The notes under the pieces were generated by a model. The model was not told the origin of the DNA, made no database searches, and saw only the letters and a list, made by a program, of their open reading frames with translations. From contig JAJYJX010000093.1 in NCBI GenBank assembly GCA_021789095.1, forward strand, positions 1 through 9,903: 9,903 nt of DNA, written 5' to 3'. Origin of the DNA: a bacterium. GTDB taxonomy: Bacteria > JAMCPX01. Shown here one piece after another: positions 8 to 9,218 of the stretch. The position numbers were made by a program, and so were the translations under genes. Numbering within the stretch: position 1 is the stretch's first letter; each line of letters starts with the position of its first letter.

Positions 8-2251
8 TCACCTCGATAGGGACAGCGCCCTATTTTCATTTAAAGAGTAATTATCCTTGTCATTCGGAACTTCCATTGAGAAAATGGGGCGCTGTCCCTG
101 CTTTGGGTACTGCGGCAGCCCCTTGAGATAGTCCGGATTATTCCGCTGGTGGCAGGTTGCGCACGTATCAAGGTTATTGTAATGCAGTGGGTCAAGAGAC
201 GCCACTTTATGATGGCAATTCCTGCACAGTCCGTGCATGGCATCCATATAACTCACAGCCGGCCTTTCAAGAGGGTTGTCCTGTAATTTGATAAACGAAC
301 TGCGTGCGATCATATATTTATGGCAGGACGTACATGGTGTTGCTGTCTTCAGTGACTTTACCGCATCAGGATCTTTATGACATTTGCTGCAGGACCGGTT
401 GCCCTCTAGTTTTTTAATATGAAAATCATGATTAAATATGTCCGTTGCAAGGTACATGTCCCTGTGGCAGGTCCTGCAGGATGTTGCCTGATTAAAGGGA
501 TAATTCATGTGATGGCAGAGCCGGCATGATGTGGTACCGGAGTTGGACTGCCGCAGGTTTTCGATGGTAAACCCCGTTAGAAAGACCGGAGGGGTTTTCT
601 CGGCTGGTGTAACGGAATTCACACTGGTGTCTCCGTTATCACTATAAGTACTTTCCAACGGGGTAAATATGAAGTGATTGATTTTCAGTCTATCAAACTG
701 CTTGTCGATCCACATCTGATGGGCTTTATGGTCAAAAACGACAAACCTGCCGTTATCATCGATAAAGAGCAATGCCTGCAGCTCCCGGGTATTTTTGTTT
801 GAGCTTTCAGCAGAAGACGCATCATTGACAATGCTATACGTGTATAGCGTCTGACCGGGCAAGGGAACCTTTTGTACCATGATACTACCCGATGCTTTCA
901 CCGGTGTCCTGCGAAGGTCTTTCCCTGTTATTGCATGTCCGGGCAGCAGATAAATTCCTATGGACATTGACAGGATAAAGATCAGGGAATAGAGCGCGGT
1001 ATTGCCCATTCCCGTGGTGCCGAGATATGTATTGGAAACAGGGTCTTGAAACGGGAGCCCGGTATCCTCCTGCGAATGTTCCGCTTCTGATTCAAATACG
1101 GAAAAGTGTTCTACAAAAAAGAAAAAGACCAGGGTCGCAGCGGCAACTACGCCGATGCTGATGGCAAATTCAGTCCATGCCGGGAAATAATTGGTCTTTG
1201 TGGCCGGAATCGTGGCAATGCCCGATACATTAATGCGGTTCAAGACAACACCGAGCACCGCGCTGGCCGATCCTGCCAAAAGCCCTGCTTTACTCTGTCT
1301 GACTCTAGGAATGGAAAAAAGGATGATCGGAATAAACACGCTCAGGCATAATTCTATTATAAAGTCCGCTGTTTCCCATGCCGGCTTCGCAAGATAGAGA
1401 AGTTTGCCGTTATATGCAAGATCCCCGATCCTGATTGCCACATACAGTCCCATCACCAGTGCGCAGGCTTTCGCAAGACCTGAAAGCAGTCCTGTTTCCT
1501 CTTTTCGCTGGTAAACCCAGCCGCTCACCAGTGACTCCAGAATGACCATTGCAAGTCCAAGGCCGATGGCGGAAATAAAAAAGAGCCACGGCATGATCTT
1601 CGAGTACCAAAGAGGGTAAATGCGGAACGGCATGATCAAAAACAGGGTCCCGAGAGAAGACTGGTGCAGCGTGGAAAGCATGATGCCGAGTATGATCAAT
1701 GGAAGCGTGATGGTCTTGAGCACTTTATAGATCCCCGGAAACGGCATCTTTTCAAACACCACCGGAGCAAACTCCAGCGCAAGGACCGTAAAATACAGCA
1801 TAACGCACCACGCGACTTCAAAGAGTGCACTGTGCGGCTGCCAGTATATCATGGGATGCCATATGTCCCACCATCGGCCGAGATCAAAGATTAACCCGAC
1901 AATCACGGCGCCATAGCCCAGAAAAGCGGTAAGCACGGCAGGGCGGACAATCGAATGATAACGATGGATATGAAAGATATAAACAGTGGCAGCTATGACA
2001 AATCCGCCTGCTGCCAGAGCCACTCCGCCTACAACATCAAACCCGATCCACAGTCCCCATGGCGTCAGATCGGTAAGGTTTGTGGTAGCTCCAAGACCGC
2101 GTATCATACGGACTATGCCGACCGCCGCGCCGAGCCCTACCAAAAACCAGAGCCCCCCTTTTACAACCCTGACTCTCGGATTAGACCGGTATGGAGAATT
2201 GAAGGCCAATTCCAGAATAAATTGTATAAGTTTTTTTACGGACTTCCTCAT
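8..2251 (-). CDS. NrfD/HmcC-type membrane protein fused to a six-haem cytochrome c domain
   Basis: Predicted quinone-interacting membrane subunit carrying its own extracytoplasmic cytochrome. Residues about 30-385 contain roughly ten hydrophobic helices of the NrfD/PsrC/HmcC type. A further single membrane segment (about 420-436) leads to a polar domain with six CxxCH haem c motifs at C576, C592, C621, C640, C676 and C697. The F-N-H-D-F-H stretch near 606-611, ahead of the third motif, looks like cytochrome c3/c7. Ordinary HmcC/NrfD proteins are about 300-420 residues and lack haem c, so this is a fusion. It is the last of four coupled genes. Its ribosome site AGAGGTGAG overlaps the stop codon of the upstream ferredoxin gene, and ATG lies 7 bp beyond that stop. 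Likely role: electron exchange between menaquinol and periplasmic c-type carriers. The last ~30 residues are encoded by an inverted-repeat element and look unlike the rest. Confidence 0.9.
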   Translation of the reverse strand: MRKSVKKLIQFILELAFNSPYRSNPRVRVVKGGLWFLVGLGAAVGIVRMIRGLGATTNLTDLTPWGLWIGFDVVGGVALAAGGFVIAATVYIFHIHRYHSIVRPAVLTAFLGYGAVIVGLIFDLGRWWDIWHPMIYWQPHSALFEVAWCVMLYFTVLALEFAPVVFEKMPFPGIYKVLKTITLPLIILGIMLSTLHQSSLGTLFLIMPFRIYPLWYSKIMPWLFFISAIGLGLAMVILESLVSGWVYQRKEETGLLSGLAKACALVMGLYVAIRIGDLAYNGKLLYLAKPAWETADFIIELCLSVFIPIILFSIPRVRQSKAGLLAGSASAVLGVVLNRINVSGIATIPATKTNYFPAWTEFAISIGVVAAATLVFFFFVEHFSVFESEAEHSQEDTGLPFQDPVSNTYLGTTGMGNTALYSLIFILSMSIGIYLLPGHAITGKDLRRTPVKASGSIMVQKVPLPGQTLYTYSIVNDASSAESSNKNTRELQALLFIDDNGRFVVFDHKAHQMWIDKQFDRLKINHFIFTPLESTYSDNGDTSVNSVTPAEKTPPVFLTGFTIENLRQSNSGTTSCRLCHHMNYPFNQATSCRTCHRDMYLATDIFNHDFHIKKLEGNRSCSKCHKDPDAVKSLKTATPCTSCHKYMIARSSFIKLQDNPLERPAVSYMDAMHGLCRNCHHKVASLDPLHYNNLDTCATCHQRNNPDYLKGLPQYPKQGQRPIFSMEVPNDKDNYSLNENRALSLSR
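18..99. repeat. Large inverted repeat forming the 3' end of the cytochrome fusion gene
   Basis: Positions 18-37 and 80-99 are reverse complements at 19 of 20 positions (mismatch at 31/86), with a 42-bp loop. The core is GGGACAGCGCCC. Such GGGACAG...CTGTCCC palindromes with A/T-rich edges resemble REP elements associated with REP-family (RAYT) transposases; that link is from memory of the type, not a search. The hairpin lies inside the coding region and supplies the final residues. Confidence 0.75.
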
Positions 2252-2258
2252 GTTAATC

Positions 2259-3068
2259 TCACCTCTTGGACTGGTCGGACTTGTCAGACCTGTCGGATTT
2301 GTCCGACTTGCCCGCGCCCTTGTTCATCAGCCGCTCCCTGCGCTCGATGATCCAGTAGACCCCGTACATGCCCAGACCCATGCCGACGAAGATCTTCGGA
2401 ACCTTCTCAAGCACATCGAACACCCTTCCCGGAAGGGGCTCTTGGGGCAGGTCCTTTTCCCAGCTCAGGAAATCAAGAGAGATATCTGACACATAAAGTA
2501 CCGATGTACCGCCGACCTCGTGTTCGCCCCATACCCGGTTTATGTACCTGCCCGGTTTTTCGTTTATCCTCTTCCTGGCCTCGGCCAATAATGCATCCCT
2601 GTCACCAAAGATAGTGGCATGGGTCGGGCATGCCTTTATGCATGCAGGTTCTTTGATTTCACCGTTCTTAATCTTCTGATAACACATGATGCATTTCCGT
2701 ACATACGGGGTGGGGTCTGACCATGTATAGCGCGGAATACCAAATGGGCAGGACATCATGCAGTAACGGCACCCTATGCACAGTTTAGGATCATAGATCA
2801 CAGGGCCTTCCGGGGTCTTTTTCAGCGCACCAACAGGGCAGACCGATACACACGCGGGTGAAAGACAGTGCCTGCATTGCTGACGTATAAAGTGGTGATC
2901 CGGTTTTTTTATAATCGTTGTCCAACGTGCTGCGGAAAGGCTATCTATGCTTTTCTGCCACCGCCATGGCTGATCTTTGCCTGTATGGTTTATTTCTTTG
3001 CAAGCTGCCACGCAATTTTCACAGCCGATGCATTTTGTTATATCAGTTAATATCGCCCATGTACTCAT
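2259..3068 (-). CDS. HmcB-like 4x[4Fe-4S] ferredoxin subunit with C-terminal membrane anchor
   Basis: Electron-transfer subunit of the HmcB/HybA/DsrO ferredoxin family. Sixteen cysteines form four [4Fe-4S] sites: C13/16/19/23, C65/68/73/77, C97/100/103/107 and C126/129/143/147. The last has the long insertion between its second and third cysteines that is typical of this family. A hydrophobic segment at about 225-241 probably anchors the protein next to the NrfD-type subunit. No Tat or Sec signal is visible at the N-terminus, so the cluster domain is predicted to lie on the cytoplasmic side unless the partner is co-exported. The start codon overlaps the preceding stop (ATGA, 3065-3068), and AAGGAG lies at 3085-3080. 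The tail after residue 250 is a low-complexity K-S-D/R-S-D run encoded by a 9-bp tandem repeat and is unlikely to be part of the fold. Confidence 0.9.
   Translation of the reverse strand: MSTWAILTDITKCIGCENCVAACKEINHTGKDQPWRWQKSIDSLSAARWTTIIKKPDHHFIRQQCRHCLSPACVSVCPVGALKKTPEGPVIYDPKLCIGCRYCMMSCPFGIPRYTWSDPTPYVRKCIMCYQKIKNGEIKEPACIKACPTHATIFGDRDALLAEARKRINEKPGRYINRVWGEHEVGGTSVLYVSDISLDFLSWEKDLPQEPLPGRVFDVLEKVPKIFVGMGLGMYGVYWIIERRERLMNKGAGKSDKSDRSDKSDQSKR
2262..2306 (-). repeat. 9-bp imperfect tandem repeat coding for the HmcB tail
   Basis: On the minus strand, units such as TCGGACAAA, TCCGACAGG, TCTGACAAG and TCCGACCAG follow one another in frame. They encode S-D-K/R/Q triplets directly before the stop codon. 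Repeat expansion has apparently lengthened the C-terminus. Confidence 0.7.
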
Positions 3069-3781
3069 ACTCGTTCTGTCTCCTTATGTAAGGTAATTGC
3101 CACATTTTCACCCATGTCTGCGGGAAAATGCCAGCCAACCTCAGACATTAACTGAGATGTTGGCAGAAGGATAAAATGTGACATCTTGGTAAAAGGAATA
3201 AGTATCAATATTAAATCTCCTGAAAGGACATGGAACAGCATCATAAGGTGGTAGGGGAGAGGGTTAAACATTGGATGCATGGCAAGAAAGCCGCTGATAA
3301 ACGGGATCAGCAGCAGCGGCGGAAGGGAAAAATCCTGAAACCGGCTCAGCCTTCTGGAAAAAGGATTGACAACACGTCCAATAATCAGCACAAAGCCGGT
3401 CACTACGGTAAGGATCGCAAGTATGTCCGCTATACTATTGGGCAATCCAGGCCAGCTTATCCCTGTGCCCCTTTTCCAGAGGAGAATGTGCGCTCCTAAG
3501 AAGATTGGTGTCATGATCAAACCGACATGAAACAGTATGGATACAACGCTGTACCAGATACGGTTTTTAGACTGGTTTATAACCTGCTTAAAAGGGAAGA
3601 GCCATTTAAGGGTCGCAGCAATGAGCGTTTTCACAGGCAGTTTTTTGTCAGATGCCCTGTAGATTGCACGGACCAGATTTATGCCCGTCAAAACTATCAG
3701 ACGCGCAATACCAAGAATCATAATAGAAATGGATAAAAGAAACAGGGGGCCTCGAGCCCATGCCAATTGTGCTTCAATCAT
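3065..3781 (-). CDS. HmcE/DsrM-like NarI-family cytochrome b membrane subunit
   Basis: Five-helix membrane protein of the respiratory nitrate reductase gamma (NarI) type, as found in HmcE and DsrM. Hydrophobic helices lie at about 13-33, 80-101, 118-137, 154-172 and 180-198. Candidate haem b ligands are H85 and H98 in helix 2, and H184 and H202 near helix 5. The 18-residue spacing of the last pair equals that of H187 and H205 in E. coli NarI, so two b haems are plausible. The expected role is moving electrons between menaquinone and the HmcF-like subunit encoded immediately upstream. Start and stop codons overlap those of both neighbours by 4 bp (ATGA at each junction), and AAGGAG sits at 3792-3787. 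Haem assignment is inference from spacing, without an alignment program. Confidence 0.87.
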   Translation of the reverse strand: MIEAQLAWARGPLFLLSISIMILGIARLIVLTGINLVRAIYRASDKKLPVKTLIAATLKWLFPFKQVINQSKNRIWYSVVSILFHVGLIMTPIFLGAHILLWKRGTGISWPGLPNSIADILAILTVVTGFVLIIGRVVNPFSRRLSRFQDFSLPPLLLIPFISGFLAMHPMFNPLPYHLMMLFHVLSGDLILILIPFTKMSHFILLPTSQLMSEVGWHFPADMGENVAITLHKETERV

Positions 3782-5157
3782 AATTTCTCCTTCGCGCTTC
3801 TGCTTTCGTCTTTTGGTTGTGTCCCGAAATCAATTGCCTTAATTACGAGGTCATGGAGCCCTACTACCTCAACGTCTTCAAGTCCATTGTCTTCTAAAAC
3901 TTCCCGCAGTTGTTTTTTACAGTTTGCACACGGGGCAACAACATACCTGGCACCTGTTTCTTTTATCTGCCTCGCTTTGACCTTTCCTGCAGGTCCTGTA
4001 CGCCATTTCCTGATTTCATCGATGGACACCGTGCCGCTGCCGCCGCCGCAGCAGTAATTGAAAGGTCCATTCGGTGTCATATCCACGAAATCCGAGCAGA
4101 TAGCGCGCAGTATTTCCCGAGGCTGGTTAACTATCCATCCCGAGCGCGCGATATTACAGGGATCATGATATGTCACCCTGTCTTTTATAGTATTTGCCCG
4201 CAGATTGAGCTTGCCCTTTTCCAGCATTTTAAGCGTATATTCCATGATATTGATTACCGGAGGTGCATCATGGCCAAAAAAGTTCGGTATACCAACCTTT
4301 GCCGAGCGGGAGGCATGTCCGCACTCGCCGATAAGGACTATCTTGCTCTTCAGCCGCGTTACTTCTGCTACCTCCATCCTGACAATGCGATCCATCATGC
4401 GATCACTGTAAAAAAGCCCGTAATTAATCCCGTCATAGTACTTTGACCCGATTGTCCATGAACCGCCGGTTGCATGCATGACCGCAGCATTGCCCATGAG
4501 GGTGTCGGGCTCTAAAAGGTAGTCGCTGACTGCCGGGAAAAAGACCATCTCTGCACCTGCATTGTCAATGGGGAATTTGACCGGCTGGCCGTACTTTTCC
4601 ATGATTTCCCCTTCCAGAAATTCACAGGTATCCTGCAGTGCTGGAAGCGGAATAGCAGATGTGTTGTGTGTCCTTCCCTCGAGCTGCTCGCGCGTAGCCA
4701 CTACCAGTGCCTTGGGTACTATTCCTATCTCGGCCAATGCCCAACGGCCTATATGGGTTATCATGCCGTGGTCAATACCCATGGGACAGAAGAACTTGCA
4801 CCTGCGGCATGCGGTGCAGTGGTAAAGTTCCTCTGCCAATTGATCAATGTAATCATCTGTAAGTGTAAAACCATTCCACAGTCTTGTTCTTATCATACCT
4901 GAAATAGTGAAGTACCGGCGATATACCCGCAGTACCAGTTCCGATCGCCAGCAGGGAACATCTTTTATGTTATTCGTGGTAAGGTAAATCGGGCAGGCAG
5001 CACTGCATCTTGAACATTTTGCAGTTAATCTGGAATATGCGTCCAGCACTGGACCATAATTTGAATATTTAATGATAGCGGCAAATGCATCCAGAAAACG
5101 GCGTGGACGGTCTTTTAACTCGAACGGCTCAACATAATAACTGTATTGGCTTTTCAT
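3778..5157 (-). CDS. HmcF/DsrK-like CCG-domain Fe-S oxidoreductase (HdrD-type), first gene of the operon
   Basis: Predicted cytoplasmic Fe-S protein of the HdrD/DsrK/HmcF type, which in characterised relatives passes electrons to or from thiol/disulfide partners. Cysteines for two cubane clusters are C48/C51/C55 with a possible fourth ligand at C69, and C114/117/120/124 followed by P-M-G. The C-terminal half carries one CCG domain: C334 (in HDPCN), C369-C370 (in NYCCGGG), and C410/C413 (PCANC), the signature of the non-cubane [4Fe-4S] disulfide-reduction site. C279 in G-E-C-G-H is also conserved in the second copy in this window. ATG at 5157 is preceded by AAAAGGTGAT (5170-5161). A sigma-54 promoter lies about 65 bp upstream. 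The gene overlaps the HmcE-like gene by 4 bp. Substrate is unknown; the protein is about the usual length. Confidence 0.9.
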   Translation of the reverse strand: MKSQYSYYVEPFELKDRPRRFLDAFAAIIKYSNYGPVLDAYSRLTAKCSRCSAACPIYLTTNNIKDVPCWRSELVLRVYRRYFTISGMIRTRLWNGFTLTDDYIDQLAEELYHCTACRRCKFFCPMGIDHGMITHIGRWALAEIGIVPKALVVATREQLEGRTHNTSAIPLPALQDTCEFLEGEIMEKYGQPVKFPIDNAGAEMVFFPAVSDYLLEPDTLMGNAAVMHATGGSWTIGSKYYDGINYGLFYSDRMMDRIVRMEVAEVTRLKSKIVLIGECGHASRSAKVGIPNFFGHDAPPVINIMEYTLKMLEKGKLNLRANTIKDRVTYHDPCNIARSGWIVNQPREILRAICSDFVDMTPNGPFNYCCGGGSGTVSIDEIRKWRTGPAGKVKARQIKETGARYVVAPCANCKKQLREVLEDNGLEDVEVVGLHDLVIKAIDFGTQPKDESRSAKEKL

Positions 5158-5175
5158 AGTATCACCTTTTACTGA

Positions 5176-5253
5176 AATTCAAATTCTGCTAAAATAATCT
5201 TTTCTCCCATTCTATTAAATAGCAATAGCTATGCCAGTGTAGGAATTTGAATT
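5176..5253. repeat. 11-bp inverted repeat flanking the sigma-54 promoter
   Basis: AATTCAAATTC at 5176-5186 is the exact reverse complement of GAATTTGAATT at 5243-5253. The arms lie either side of the -24/-12 element. They could be a binding site or a chance match in AT-rich DNA; no function can be assigned. Confidence 0.4.
5221..5236 (-). promoter_or_regulatory. sigma-54 (-24/-12) promoter for the hmc-like operon
   Basis: Read on the minus strand the site is TGGCATAGCTATTGCT. This matches the sigma-54 consensus TGGCAC-N5-TTGCW with the correct GG-to-GC spacing and one change in the -24 hexamer (T for C). The predicted start of transcription is about 5210, giving a leader of about 53 nt before ATG 5157. 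The adjacent divergent gene encodes a sigma-54 activator, which strongly supports use of this promoter. Confidence 0.78.
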
Positions 5254-5293
5254 CTCCCTCATTCTTTCTCTCTTCACGGGCTGACCGACAATT

Positions 5294-5383
5294 GTCATTC
5301 TGAGGCGTAACCGAAGAATCTCGTTTTGTAACTCATTAAAAAGACTGGATTCTTCAGGGCACTATGGCGCCATTCAGAATAAC
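5294..5383. repeat. Dispersed-type intergenic inverted repeat (CATTCTGAG...GAAGAATC)
   Basis: The left half begins GTCATTCTGA (5294-5303) and ends GAAGAATC (5313-5320). The right half, inverted, has GATTCTTC (5348-5355) and TCAGAATAAC (5374-5383). The inner arms pair exactly over 8 bp and the outer arms at 9 of 10. CATTCTGAG...GAAGAATC modules are familiar as repeated intergenic elements in many bacterial genomes, so this looks like a miniature mobile or REP-like element. It lies between the activator sites and the sigma-54 promoter. AATTGTCA occurs near both ends (5290-5297 and 5401-5408), a possible but unproven target duplication. Confidence 0.55.
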
Positions 5384-5440
5384 CAATATGTTATTTTTTG
5401 AATTGTCAGATAGCCTCCACGGAGAAAGAAGGCAAGGTGA

Positions 5441-5458
5441 ATTACATACAAAATATCT
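5441..5458. repeat. 18-bp shared intergenic sequence, copy 1
   Basis: ATTACATACAAAATATCT here differs by one base from 7016-7033 (ATTGCATACAAAATATCT). The copies lie upstream of the sigma-54 regulator gene and upstream of the second hmcE-like gene. It may be a shared operator; copy 2 abuts a -35 box. Confidence 0.5.
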
Positions 5459-5463
5459 GCTTA

Positions 5464-5481
5464 TGTTTTAAAAATGAAACA
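5464..5481. promoter_or_regulatory. Putative activator-binding dyad, site 1
   Basis: TGTTTT-AAAAAT-GAAACA, flanked by A and T. It has the dyad plan of sites bound by Fis-type helix-turn-helix dimers of sigma-54 activators (TGT-N12-ACA). Its centre is 31 bp from an equivalent second site, about three helical turns, so two dimers would sit on the same DNA face. It is about 240 bp upstream of the operon's -24/-12 promoter. Confidence 0.65.
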
Positions 5482-5494
5482 TGTCTCACGAGGA

Positions 5495-5512
5495 TGTTGC
5501 AAAGATGAAACA
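5495..5512. promoter_or_regulatory. Putative activator-binding dyad, site 2
   Basis: TGTTGC-AAAGAT-GAAACA, flanked by A and T. It shares the half-sites and the six-base spacer pattern (AAANAT-like) of site 1. It ends 19 bp before the regulator's ATG, so occupancy could also repress or tune the regulator gene itself. Confidence 0.65.
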
Positions 5513-5531
5513 TATGTGCTACATTTAAAAT

Positions 5532-6866
5532 ATGGTACGACTTGATAATAAATTCTTCCCACTGATTTTTGACACTATCTCTCATGGTATTTTTACCATT
5601 GATGAGGCAGGCAAAATTACTTCCTTCAATAAGGCAGCCGAGGAGATCTCGGGCTATAGTGAAGAAGAAGTAATAGGTATACCGTGCGCCGAGGTCTTCC
5701 GGACGGATATCTGTCAGGAGCTCTGTCCCCTAAAACAGAGCATAGTGAGTCAACAGCGTATTGAAAACCGCGAGGTCAAGGTATTAAAAAAGAATGGACA
5801 TCGAATTCCGATTTTTATCTCCACCGCTGCACTGATCAATGAAGAGGGCAGAGTAATTGGCGGAGTGGAGATGTTCAGGGACATCTCCACTGAAAGCGAA
5901 CTAAAAAAACAACTGTACAGTTCCTACAGTTTTGAAGATATCATTACGAAAAGCCCTGCAATGAAAGGTGTACTGGAAATGTTGCCGTTAGTGGCGGTAA
6001 GCCAGAGTACAGTCCTGATTAACGGCGAAAGCGGAACAGGCAAGGAGCTGGTGGCAAGGGCCATTCATAATCATGGTCCCAGATGTAAGTGTCCTTTTGT
6101 TGCAATCAACTGTGCGGCACTGCCGGATACCTTGTTAGAATCCGAGCTTTTCGGCTATACACGAGGGGCTTTCACCGATGCAAAGAAGGACAAACCGGGA
6201 CGCTTTGCCCGTGCGGAAAAGGGAACACTTTTTCTTGATGAGGTCGGCGATCTCTCTCCGGTAATCCAGTCAAAACTTTTGCGTGTGCTCCAGGAAAAAG
6301 AATACGAACCGCTTGGTTCTAATCAGCCGATCAAGGCCAACGTTCGGATCATCGCGGCCACCAATAAAGATCTGGCCCGCGAGGTACAACGCAAAAAGTT
6401 CCGCCAGGATCTCTTCTTCCGCCTTAATGTGGTTAATATCAATCTACCTCCCTTGCGTGACCGAAGAGAAGACATCCCGCTGTTGATCAACCACTTTATC
6501 CAGCATTTCAACGCTGTCCAGGCACGGCGCATCTTACGCTGCTCGGAACGCGTCATGGCTGCCCTTATGAAATATGAATTTCCCGGAAATGTACGGGAAT
6601 TAGAGAATGCCATAGAACATGCCTATGTTGTCTGTGACGGTGATACTATTCGTCTGGATCACCTCCCATCGCATATCGTTGCTGCTTTTTCCCAGCAGTT
6701 AGGCCCGGATGATAACCTTTCCCGCCCTCTGGAGGACGCCGAAGCTGATGTTATCCGCAACGCCATCACAAAGAACAAAGGGAACCGTAATTTAACAGCA
6801 AAGGAACTCGGTATATCGCGGAACACATTGTGGAGAAAAATGAAGAAATACAAGATAGAATATTAA
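5532..6866 (+). CDS. PAS domain sigma-54-dependent transcriptional activator
   Basis: Bacterial enhancer-binding protein without a receiver domain. It has an N-terminal PAS domain (about 7-118), a sigma-54 AAA+ domain (about 135-370), and a Fis-type helix-turn-helix (about 403-440). Visible motifs are Walker A G-E-S-G-T-G-K (165-171), the sigma-54 contact loop as GAFTDA (212-217) instead of the common GAFTGA, Walker B with F-L-D-E (234-237), the arginine-finger region R-Q-D-L-F-F-R (291-297), and F-P-G-N-V-R-E-L (350-357). The PAS domain carries C52, C61 and C65, which suggests redox or metal/cofactor sensing. It is transcribed divergently from the hmc-like operon, whose sigma-54 promoter it probably activates through the dyads at 5464-5512. 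An in-frame TAA at 5526-5528 fixes ATG 5532 as the earliest ATG start. No clear Shine-Dalgarno sequence precedes it. Confidence 0.93.
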   Translation: MVRLDNKFFPLIFDTISHGIFTIDEAGKITSFNKAAEEISGYSEEEVIGIPCAEVFRTDICQELCPLKQSIVSQQRIENREVKVLKKNGHRIPIFISTAALINEEGRVIGGVEMFRDISTESELKKQLYSSYSFEDIITKSPAMKGVLEMLPLVAVSQSTVLINGESGTGKELVARAIHNHGPRCKCPFVAINCAALPDTLLESELFGYTRGAFTDAKKDKPGRFARAEKGTLFLDEVGDLSPVIQSKLLRVLQEKEYEPLGSNQPIKANVRIIAATNKDLAREVQRKKFRQDLFFRLNVVNINLPPLRDRREDIPLLINHFIQHFNAVQARRILRCSERVMAALMKYEFPGNVRELENAIEHAYVVCDGDTIRLDHLPSHIVAAFSQQLGPDDNLSRPLEDAEADVIRNAITKNKGNRNLTAKELGISRNTLWRKMKKYKIEY

Positions 6867-7032
6867 AGCTGCCGCTGATTAGGCAAACCATGTCAGAAAA
6901 TCAAAGACTTTCTAACGGAATACATGTACCTGATTTCCTAACTATTTCCCCTTTCTTCTATTATTTTAAGCTAAATCATGTTTTTTAAGGTTTTTCAATA
7001 GGTTGAATAAAGTATATTGCATACAAAATATC
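6867..7032. other. Intergenic region after the regulator gene
   Basis: AT-rich, with no open frame that looks coding and no convincing terminator hairpin with a T-run. There is no TGG-N9-TTGC sigma-54 element on the plus strand. Only copy 2 of the 18-bp repeat (7016-7033) stands out. Confidence 0.5.
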
Positions 7033-7033
7033 T
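7016..7033. repeat. 18-bp shared intergenic sequence, copy 2
   Basis: ATTGCATACAAAATATCT matches 5441-5458 at 17 of 18 positions. Its last base is the first T of the TTGACA -35 box, a position where a bound protein could activate or block the promoter. Confidence 0.5.
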
Positions 7034-7061
7034 TGACATATATTACGATTTAATTTATCAT
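7033..7061 (+). promoter_or_regulatory. sigma-70-type promoter for the second hmcEF-like operon
   Basis: TTGACA at 7033-7038, a 17-bp spacer, then TATCAT at 7056-7061 (five of six matches to TATAAT). Transcription should start near 7068, giving a leader of about 40 nt before ATG 7110. The near-consensus boxes suggest fairly constant expression, unlike the sigma-54 operon on the left. Confidence 0.72.
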
Positions 7062-7062
7062 G

Positions 7063-7090
7063 ATTACAGGATCATAATTACAGGATCAAT
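7063..7090. repeat. Tandem 14-bp duplication at the transcription start region
   Basis: ATTACAGGATCA occurs at 7063-7074 and again at 7077-7088, a 14-bp period. It lies just downstream of the -10 box and before the AAGGAG ribosome site (7098-7103). It may be a recent slippage duplication or paired operator half-sites. Confidence 0.5.
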
Positions 7091-7109
7091 AGAGTAAAAG
7101 GAGTCTACT

Positions 7110-7778
7110 ATGAATGTTGCAAGCTTCCTAATAGGAATTGTGCTGCCTTATATTGCAGTAGCTTTGTTTTTAGTAAGTATAGGCATCAGAATAAACAGGT
7201 GGGCCACTTCACCTCATCCGCTAAAATGGTCGCTTTATCCAATGCCTGCAGACTATACCGGGCAGATAAAGTTTATGCTGAAAGAGATCCTCAGCTTCCG
7301 CGCGCTGCTTCATAATAACCGCAAACTGTGGGCCGGTTCGTGGTTGTTTCACATAGGTATGGCTCTTATTATCCTGTGGTTTATAACATTTGTTTTAGGA
7401 CTGCATGCAGGTATAGTACTCAGGGCCGGACTTGCATTCCTTATTGTTTTTCCTCTCTATCTTTTTTTTGTAAGACTGGCCAGTACAAAAATGAGAACCA
7501 TATCCTCACCTCTTGAATACTTCAATCTTTTAATCTTTATTGCGATAGGCATACTTGGTATTTTACTATTATCATTTAATAAACCTGACCCCACTGCTGT
7601 TCGCCAATATTTTATAAGTTTAATCTTACTTCATCCCGCTGCCCCGCCAGAATCTTCAATATTTCTTTCTATGCTTGCAATAACGGAGTTTTTCATGATC
7701 TATTTCCCGAACAGCCGCATGCTGCATATGATAAGCAAGTATTTTACATACCACAAGATCAGCTGGGAAAGTCATTAA
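7110..7778 (+). CDS. Second HmcE/DsrM-like membrane cytochrome b subunit
   Basis: Membrane protein with about five hydrophobic helices (near 6-26, 78-97, 103-123, 138-156 and 183-200), similar in plan to NarI/HmcE proteins. It shares L-F-H-I/V-G around H81 and the F-P-N-S-R-M-L-H motif around H206 with the copy at 3065-3781. By hand alignment, the positions matching the first copy's H98 and H184 are F94 and M188. So it may hold one b haem instead of two; H99 and H175 are other histidines that could substitute. AAGGAG at 7098-7103 lies 6 bp before ATG. Its TAA stop is followed by the coding region for an HmcF-like partner, so the two are co-transcribed. Expected role: quinone-side electron transfer to that partner. 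Confidence 0.82.
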   Translation: MNVASFLIGIVLPYIAVALFLVSIGIRINRWATSPHPLKWSLYPMPADYTGQIKFMLKEILSFRALLHNNRKLWAGSWLFHIGMALIILWFITFVLGLHAGIVLRAGLAFLIVFPLYLFFVRLASTKMRTISSPLEYFNLLIFIAIGILGILLLSFNKPDPTAVRQYFISLILLHPAAPPESSIFLSMLAITEFFMIYFPNSRMLHMISKYFTYHKISWESH

Positions 7779-7787
7779 ATGAGAATA

Positions 7788-7795
7788 GAAAGGAG
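7788..7795 (+). promoter_or_regulatory. Ribosome binding site deciding the HmcF-like start
   Basis: GAAAGGAG lies 7 bp before the in-frame ATG at 7803. The earlier in-frame ATG at 7779 directly abuts the upstream stop codon and has no Shine-Dalgarno sequence at a usable distance. ATG 7803 is therefore preferred. Confidence 0.65.
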
Positions 7796-7802
7796 TAATG
7801 GA

Positions 7803-9218
7803 ATGCCACAAACCGCTAAAAATGAAAATATAGAGAAGGGGAATATGCAGAAACAACCATCCGAAAATGTAAAAAATACAGAAAAAAAGCAAAAAAGGAA
7901 TTACCCGTTCTTTGCCATAGAAAATCCTATAGAAGAAAACAGGATCCCTGTTTTCATAAAAACAATGGAAGCGGTGCTTAAAGACGATAAATATAGACTG
8001 CTGCTTGATCTGTATCTCAATACTTGTGCAAGCTGCAATTCCTGCGCTGATCAGTGTCATCTTTATCAAACAACGCATGAAGAAAAAGACCTTCCGGCTT
8101 ATCGCTCCAACATGTTAAGAGCCGTATACCGCAAATACTTTACAACAAGCGGAAAACTTTTAGGCGGGTTTGTAGGAGCTAAAGCATTAAAAGAAGACGA
8201 CATCGATAATATGATAGAAAGCTTCTACAGATGCACCATGTGCAGAAGATGCGCTGTTGAATGTCCAATGGGAGTTGATAACGCGCTGATTACCAGAATA
8301 GGCAGATGTGTTATCGGTGAACTTAATCTTGCACCAAAAAACTTTACAGTCAGCAGCTATCAGCAATTGTACGGCGTTGGCAATACATCTTCTATTCCAA
8401 AAGAAGCATTTATAGATACTCTCGACTTTCTGCAGGACGAAATTAAGGATATGACAGGGCATAGTGTTGAATTCCCGAGAGACAAGGTAGGTGCTGAATA
8501 CCTGTTCATAGCACCTGTAAGCGACTATATCATGGAAGCTGACACGCTTATGGGAACAGCAATGACGCTGCAGGCCGCGGGTGCAGACTGGACAATCGGG
8601 ACCGGATATTATGACGCAATAAACTACGGTCTTTTCTATTCGGATACAGTCACTGCAGACGCTTTGAATAAATTATTAGCCGAAGCTTATAGATTAAAGG
8701 TAAAGAAAATACTGATAGGAGAATGCGGCCACGCAACAAAAACTGCAAAACTGTTTGTGGATGTATTTGGGAAGCATCAATTCCCGATCCAGAATGTTAT
8801 GGAGTATACCGCTGAAGCCATTAAAAAGGGAAGGGTAAAGCTGAATCCCGAGGTAAATCAGGAAACGGTAACCTATCATGATCCCTGCAACCTTGGAAGA
8901 GGGCTTGGTATATACGAACCGCCCCGTAACATTGTGAAAGCTGCTGTTAAACATTTTGTAGAACTCCAGCCCAACCGCGAAAAGAACTATTGCTGCGGCG
9001 GCGGGGGGGGGAGTGTAACTGTTCCGGACATGTATAATTTCAGAATGAACCTTGCAGGCATCAAAAAGGTGGAACAGATAAAGGCATCCGGAGCTAAATA
9101 TCTTGCGGCTCCCTGCGCTAATTGTAAAAAGCAGTTGAAAGAGCTGGTGGAATACCATAAATTACCGGTTACAGTAGTCGGTGTGCATGATTTACTTATA
9201 AGAGCTCTTTTAATGTGA
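7803..9218 (+). CDS. Second HmcF/DsrK-like CCG-domain Fe-S oxidoreductase
   Basis: Paralogue of the protein at 3778-5157, of the HdrD/DsrK/HmcF type. Numbering from ATG 7779, it has two complete cubane motifs, C83/86/89/93 and C152/155/158/162, and a CCG domain with C370, C405-C406 and C446/C449. G-E-C-G-H at 314-318 is also shared. The first ~45 residues are a lysine/glutamate-rich, probably disordered extension absent from the other copy. I prefer ATG 7803 (471 residues), because a strong Shine-Dalgarno sequence precedes it; ATG 7779 gives 479. Codons are visibly richer in AGA and ATA than in the left operon, so the two copies may have separate histories. The predicted role is cytoplasmic thiol/disulfide electron transfer with the HmcE-like partner. 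A run of nine G at 9003-9011 encodes part of the glycine stretch after CCG. Confidence 0.88.
   Translation: MPQTAKNENIEKGNMQKQPSENVKNTEKKQKRNYPFFAIENPIEENRIPVFIKTMEAVLKDDKYRLLLDLYLNTCASCNSCADQCHLYQTTHEEKDLPAYRSNMLRAVYRKYFTTSGKLLGGFVGAKALKEDDIDNMIESFYRCTMCRRCAVECPMGVDNALITRIGRCVIGELNLAPKNFTVSSYQQLYGVGNTSSIPKEAFIDTLDFLQDEIKDMTGHSVEFPRDKVGAEYLFIAPVSDYIMEADTLMGTAMTLQAAGADWTIGTGYYDAINYGLFYSDTVTADALNKLLAEAYRLKVKKILIGECGHATKTAKLFVDVFGKHQFPIQNVMEYTAEAIKKGRVKLNPEVNQETVTYHDPCNLGRGLGIYEPPRNIVKAAVKHFVELQPNREKNYCCGGGGGSVTVPDMYNFRMNLAGIKKVEQIKASGAKYLAAPCANCKKQLKELVEYHKLPVTVVGVHDLLIRALLM

Follow-up and report, generated by a model that had tools for sequence, protein, structure and literature searches.

The operon and its fused subunit

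The window, which is the whole stretch of 9,903 nucleotides analysed here, corresponds to the complete contig C25 of a 2.15-Mb draft genome and ends at the 3' end of a gene that joins a NrfD-type membrane anchor to a multihaem cytochrome. Quinone-handling membrane proteins and multihaem cytochromes are normally separate proteins. The fused gene belongs to an hmcF-E-B-(C::cyt) operon that runs from 5157 to 8 on the minus strand, head to tail, with consecutive genes overlapping by 4 bases or lying 7 bases apart. The features are as follows.

8–2251, minus strand: hmcC::cyt6 fusion, 747 aa; ten-helix NrfD/HmcC part, 11th helix and hexahaem class III cytochrome
1076–2179, minus strand: NrfD/HmcC domain, aa 25–392; NF045714 321 bits, ActC fold, QrcD residues kept
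929–1018, minus strand: 11th transmembrane helix, aa 412–441; hydropathy, and AF2 helix at 412–435
146–739, minus strand: hexahaem cytochrome domain, aa 505–702; PF02085 and profile match to 16-haem cytochromes
512–526, minus strand: CxxCH 1, aa 576–580
464–478, minus strand: CxxCH 2, aa 592–596
377–391, minus strand: CxxCH 3, aa 621–625
320–334, minus strand: CxxCH 4, aa 640–644
212–226, minus strand: CxxCH 5, aa 676–680
149–163, minus strand: CxxCH 6, aa 697–701
2259–3068, minus strand: hmcB; 16 Cys for four 4Fe-4S sites, a helix at the C-terminus and no export signal
3065–3781, minus strand: hmcE; NarI/DsrM-like cytochrome b, with His85/202 and His98/184 as two haem-b pairs
3778–5157, minus strand: hmcF; DsrK/HmcF-like CCG iron-sulfur protein, PF02754, NF045796 271 bits
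5532–6866, plus strand: divergent PAS sigma-54 activator, conserved beside the operon and upstream in many other loci

As originally predicted, anchor and cytochrome form a single polypeptide, encoded by one 747-aa open reading frame with no break in frame, and a hydropathy scan together with the motif positions bore out the order of about ten helices, an eleventh segment and then six CxxCH motifs. Averaged over 39 homologues, the scan places ten helices by aa 380 and the 11th at 423–441. Pfam matches NrfD at aa 62–341 (1.4e-20) and Cytochrom_CIII (PF02085) at aa 573–644 (4.2e-10), the NCBIfam HmcC match covers aa 37–391, and 5,000 rounds of shuffling of the C-terminal part produced at most one CxxCH, compared with the six real ones. 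In ten-helix NrfD relatives both termini are cytoplasmic (PMC8076601), so that an 11th helix is required for an attached cytochrome to reach the periplasm. In the 39-homologue scan the positive charge of the fusion lies mainly in the loops that are cytoplasmic if the N-terminus is cytoplasmic, a distribution that agrees with an 11th helix carrying the cytochrome across, and we infer that the haem domain is periplasmic.

Contig C11 shares 126 bp with the window and carries the operon onward. The number of copies of a 9-bp tandem unit (CTATCGAGG), next to an inverted-repeat element, differs between the two contigs; C11 has one additional unit, which gives a fusion ORF of 750 aa. The final ~30 fusion codons lie inside the inverted-repeat element (window 10–110), related copies of which are present on C169, C201, C144, C140 and C102. 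Downstream of the fusion, C11 encodes a histidine kinase of 483 aa with two PAS domains and then a pair of receiver proteins, an order also found in L044, L050, L051, L054 and most of the F-containing loci, defined as those in which HmcF is adjacent. Modules for quinone, for haems of types c and b and for disulfide-type (CCG) chemistry are all encoded in the operon itself, and the lack of a stand-alone cytochrome was confirmed, as no other CxxCH-rich gene is present in the window or in the C11 continuation.

Several neighbouring genes are of related types. C11 (G000:C11, locus L040) also encodes, at 3144–6657 on the minus strand, a 584-aa DsrK/HmcF-like CCG::receiver fusion, accompanied by a PAS kinase and a NarI-like protein, and at 6755–8968 on the minus strand a SulP-type sulfate permease, consistent with sulfur respiration. 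CCG::receiver-domain fusions are also encoded near the operons in L070, L072, L076 and L098. Within the window, positions 7110–9218 of the plus strand carry a second pair of DsrM-like (short, 222 aa) and DsrK-like genes (DsrK 351 bits for a cut-off of 400), a pair that is also conserved beside the operon in L050.

Recurrence and relatives of the fusion

Two further genera of the family carry the fusion, with 72% and 70% identity; other families, two sampled ones included, carry it with 45–57% identity over the anchor. Among the named genomes, 49 loci carry the cytochrome domain, and 44 full-length fusions could be read, including the window protein and that of G031. The hosts belong to Planctomycetota, Acidobacteriota, Myxococcota, Gemmatimonadota, Latescibacterota, Zixiibacteriota, Chloroflexota and Electryoneota, in addition to one locus labelled Proteobacteria and one truncated Sumerlaeota locus. 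With one exception, the titles shown denote MAGs, and for this reason no cultured host was recognised. The proposed check, whether HmcF, HmcE and HmcB neighbours accompany the fusion elsewhere, came out positive, although some operons lack HmcF.

The window gene stops at a contig edge beside a repeat, which could point to two genes joined by an assembly or gene-calling artefact. This explanation, an assembly error having been named in the original prediction as one of the findings that would refute it, is rejected and retains practically no probability, because the 44 fusions come from independent assemblies, the long contigs of L063 and L071 among them.

In a tree of the NrfD domain a single, weakly supported branch (85/57) separates the fused proteins from 22 unfused relatives. 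The window genome also carries, on C69, an unfused HmcC beside HmcB, followed by a separate four-haem protein, which shows a split arrangement within an organism that also has the fusion. At 5896–10510, loci L096 and L097 each combine HmcB with a protein of 16 CxxCH motifs and an HmcC::cyt that has five, possibly an intermediate between Hmc and the fusion. In two Phycisphaerae loci a protein of ~1000 aa with 23 CxxCH motifs follows an F-less operon (L055, 10435–13482; L095, 10501–13407); it might be a route to outside acceptors.

Predicted quinone, haem and iron-sulfur sites

The AF2 model has a mean pLDDT of 76, and the fold of the anchor is closest to ActC of alternative complex III (6btm_C, Z 34.6, rmsd 4.3, 369 residues). 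Functional residues were mapped with a QrcD found in another genome, compared with the 44 fusion rows and with published work (PMC13059093; PMC6303296). QrcD Y110, D120, S138 and Y150 correspond to Y113, D123, S141 and Y153 of the fusion, which are kept in 44/44, as are the counterparts of E157, H199 and R358. The counterpart of E164 is kept in 42 of the 44, and those of D70 (D72 here) and Y88 in 36, including the window protein; E413 has no conserved counterpart among the 44. Mutations of D70, Y110, S138 or Y150 abolish QrcD function, and changes of D120 and R358 have a milder effect (PMC13059093). Judged from this alignment, the positions on which QrcD depends to bind quinone and to take up protons from the cytoplasm are preserved in the fusion, whose quinone site is predicted to lie on the periplasmic side.

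The haem domain combines the PF02085 match and the six CxxCH motifs with six candidate distal histidines, and thereby has the features of class III multihaem cytochromes. The six additional histidines (508, 511, 581, 608, 611 and 673) are each present in 42–44 of the 44 fusion rows and, with the six CxxCH motifs, fit six bis-His haems. By profile the domain is nearest to 16-haem cytochromes (1z1n, 4.9e-25, then 2e84 and 1h29). A direct sequence search of the whole fusion protein against solved structures gave no match, a Foldseek search with the isolated cytochrome model gave none at E ≤ 0.001, and VIA with the same model placed HmcA and c3 on top, weakly (Z 3.5–4.1). As these fold matches are weak, the kinship of the cytochrome to HmcA rests on the profile match.

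Four cluster sites are preserved in HmcB, as is the tyrosine of a PFGIPRY segment, which by its position would correspond to QrcC Tyr113. In every fusion operon read, its frame opens directly at the first cluster and has no export signal, and no Tat partner gene is visible in the operon; after its tail helix comes Arg-Arg, a feature shared with Tat-exported relatives. A twin-arginine motif is present in the unfused HmcB relatives of G014 (C306) and G094. At 3277–4089 of L041 there is another HmcB-type protein with a tail helix and neither an export signal nor a visible Tat partner. Export of a signal-less HmcB-type protein together with a Tat hydrogenase has been described (PMC10924467). The HmcB of the fusion operons would either be exported by an unseen partner or work from the cytoplasm; in the latter case its clusters might not reach a quinone site on the periplasmic side, and the mechanism proposed below would change.

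The proposed DsrC link and the known complexes

The presence of HmcF tracks that of DsrC and DsrA. DsrC and/or DsrA were found in all 26 genomes with an F-containing operon (DsrC in 24, one as a fragment below the cut-off, and DsrA in 21; in L076, among the 26, the fusion is readable only in its cytochrome part), compared with 0/7 genomes that have E-B-(C::cyt) only. The state of F changes only twice on the tree, both times by loss (independent-pairs p = 0.5), so that this link has few independent data points; Fisher p values for these associations take no account of relatedness. DsrA was above the cut-off in 24 of 38 fusion genomes versus 6 of 87 without the fusion, the latter sampled from families other than that of the window; dsrA is also present in members of the window family that lack the fusion. 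The tracking of DsrC and DsrA suggests that the disulfide side of the complex can be narrowed to DsrC-linked chemistry.

The state of HmcE changes along with that of HmcF. Both HmcE histidine pairs (85/202 and 98/184) are present in all 29 F-adjacent operons, while each of the 9 F-less proteins lacks both His85 and His202, which are replaced by Arg and Cys/Ser/Thr in Planctomycetota and by Val/Leu/Ile and Arg in Myxococcota. The 18-residue spacing of His184 and His202 resembles that of the NarI haem ligands, and it is after NarI that we assume the pairing 85/202 and 98/184 and take 85/202 to be the haem near the cytoplasm. At the level of sequence, HmcE of the F-containing operons is shown to have the candidate ligands for two haems b and HmcF the DsrK-type CCG cofactor motif. 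The same double histidine loss in two independent losses of F is suggestive, as two events that carry no statistical claim. The joint loss of HmcF and of one HmcE haem b predicts an electron path from HmcF to one haem b and then to the other.

Canonical DsrO and DsrP are encoded elsewhere in the window genome, and DsrO is present in most DsrA-bearing genomes. The idea that the fusion complex replaces DsrMKJOP was therefore rejected; the complex is additional to DsrMKJOP, and DsrC already has a partner.

On balance we lean towards a model in which F-E-B-(C::cyt6) is a complex of the Hmc/DsrMKJOP kind that connects DsrC-linked thiol chemistry with the menaquinone pool and with haem c in the periplasm, and that looks tied to the chemistry of sulfite reduction. 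Through the 11th helix the haem domain would reach the periplasm and lie next to a menaquinone site on that side, where it would stand in for the separate cytochrome of the relatives (HmcA, DsrJ or QrcA). DsrC-bound sulfur (trisulfide or persulfide) in the cytoplasm would exchange electrons, by way of the haems b and HmcF, with menaquinol and the cytochromes of the periplasm, and protons would be taken up from the cytoplasm at the NrfD site. In a sulfite or sulfate reducer the electrons probably run toward DsrC. Where F has been lost, the reduced E-B-(C::cyt) module would keep a single haem b and may only join quinone to periplasmic haem c.

A histidine kinase is encoded downstream in 17 of the 22 F-containing loci with room for it, versus 0/9 F-less loci. 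Together with the DsrK-like::receiver proteins on the adjoining contig C11 and near other fusion operons, this observation agrees with a complex that serves mainly as a redox sensor, delivering electrons to HmcF so that the PAS kinase and receivers report the redox state of quinone or thiols. We consider this improbable, since the conserved proton-path and quinone residues suit bulk electron transfer and five F-containing loci with downstream room have no kinase. For a complex that exchanges electrons with DsrC, the co-encoded PAS histidine kinase and receivers probably report its redox load.

What Hmc-type complexes do in sulfur-reducing bacteria, and in which direction they carry electrons, is unsettled, and the fusion offers a simpler version of them, found far beyond the classical sulfate reducers. 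It also provides a natural experiment, in which loss of the DsrK-type subunit coincides with loss of one HmcE haem-b site and with the absence of DsrC and DsrAB. The fusion supports the idea that the cytochrome and the NrfD anchor are in physical contact in unfused relatives. A more tentative extension, which we hold with less assurance than the model itself, is that this is a distinct and widespread respiratory complex, with quinone site and periplasmic haem chain on one polypeptide, two haems b and a DsrK-type subunit leading to DsrC, and its own kinase-receiver pair as a monitor, and that lineages losing DsrC also shed the DsrK-type subunit and the haem b nearer the cytoplasm and retain a minimal quinone/haem-c module. 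No description of the fusion was found in the open-access literature searched, and the passages found in papers on global sulfite-reducer diversity, Acidobacteriota and NrfD subunits describe none.

The original prediction could not match the complex to a named system. This stands in that all subunits score below the curated cut-offs, and is qualified in that the parts are of Hmc type and that a two-component pair belongs to the operon. All the subunits have homologues among the Hmc, Dsr or Qrc parts but fall below each cut-off, and the complex is for this reason assigned to none of them.

With Hmc of Desulfovibrio (HmcABCDEF) it shares homologous HmcB, HmcC, HmcE and HmcF subunits and a cytochrome nearest the 16-haem HmcA. 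It might thus be an ordinary Hmc, with HmcA shrunk and fused to HmcC, that connects a pool of cytochrome c3 in the periplasm with the membrane and the cytoplasm and has no particular tie to DsrC. The anchor is nearest to HmcC/HybB and scores best as HmcC, HmcB scores best as HmcB, the cytochrome is nearest HmcA by profile and weakly by fold (Z 4.1), and L096 and L097 unite a 16-haem protein with HmcB and HmcC::cyt. We nevertheless regard this as unlikely. All subunits lie well under the Hmc equivalog cut-offs (HmcC 321 bits for 550, HmcB 239 for 420, HmcE 123 for 275, HmcF 200 for 750), the cytochrome is fused to HmcC and has only six haems, no separate 16-haem HmcA is encoded among the operon genes of the window and C11, HmcB has in no fusion operon read the Tat signal typical of Hmc, the gene order is F-E-B-C with kinase and receiver genes, and the presence of F tracks DsrC. 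Moreover, the function of Hmc, and the direction of electron transfer in HmcC, are themselves uncertain (PMC6303296).

With DsrMKJOP the complex shares five kinds of module (DsrK corresponding to F, DsrM to E, DsrO to B, DsrP to C and DsrJ to the cytochrome) and a presence that tracks DsrC. It differs in its HmcC/HybB-like anchor and its scores (DsrK 271 bits for 400, DsrO 112 for 200), and in place of a separate triheme DsrJ the operon encodes a six-haem, anchor-fused cytochrome. Like the menaquinone reductase QrcABCD, it has a ten-helix NrfD subunit with the matching quinone and proton residues and a multihaem cytochrome partner; there is no QrcB-like subunit here, the F and E subunits are extra, QrcA is itself a separate protein, and the fusion scores 110.7 bits for the QrcD cut-off of 570. 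Alternative complex III (ActABCDEF) provides, in ActC, the closest solved fold to the anchor; it has two NrfD subunits where the operon encodes one, with a CCG protein and a cytochrome b instead and neither an ActF-type second NrfD nor ActB. Finally, the HybB-like module found with an Fe-Fe hydrogenase (PMC10924467), in which the Tat-exported hydrogenase, of a kind not encoded in the operon, is the likely carrier, shares with it a signal-less, C-tailed HmcB-type protein and a HybB-like anchor.
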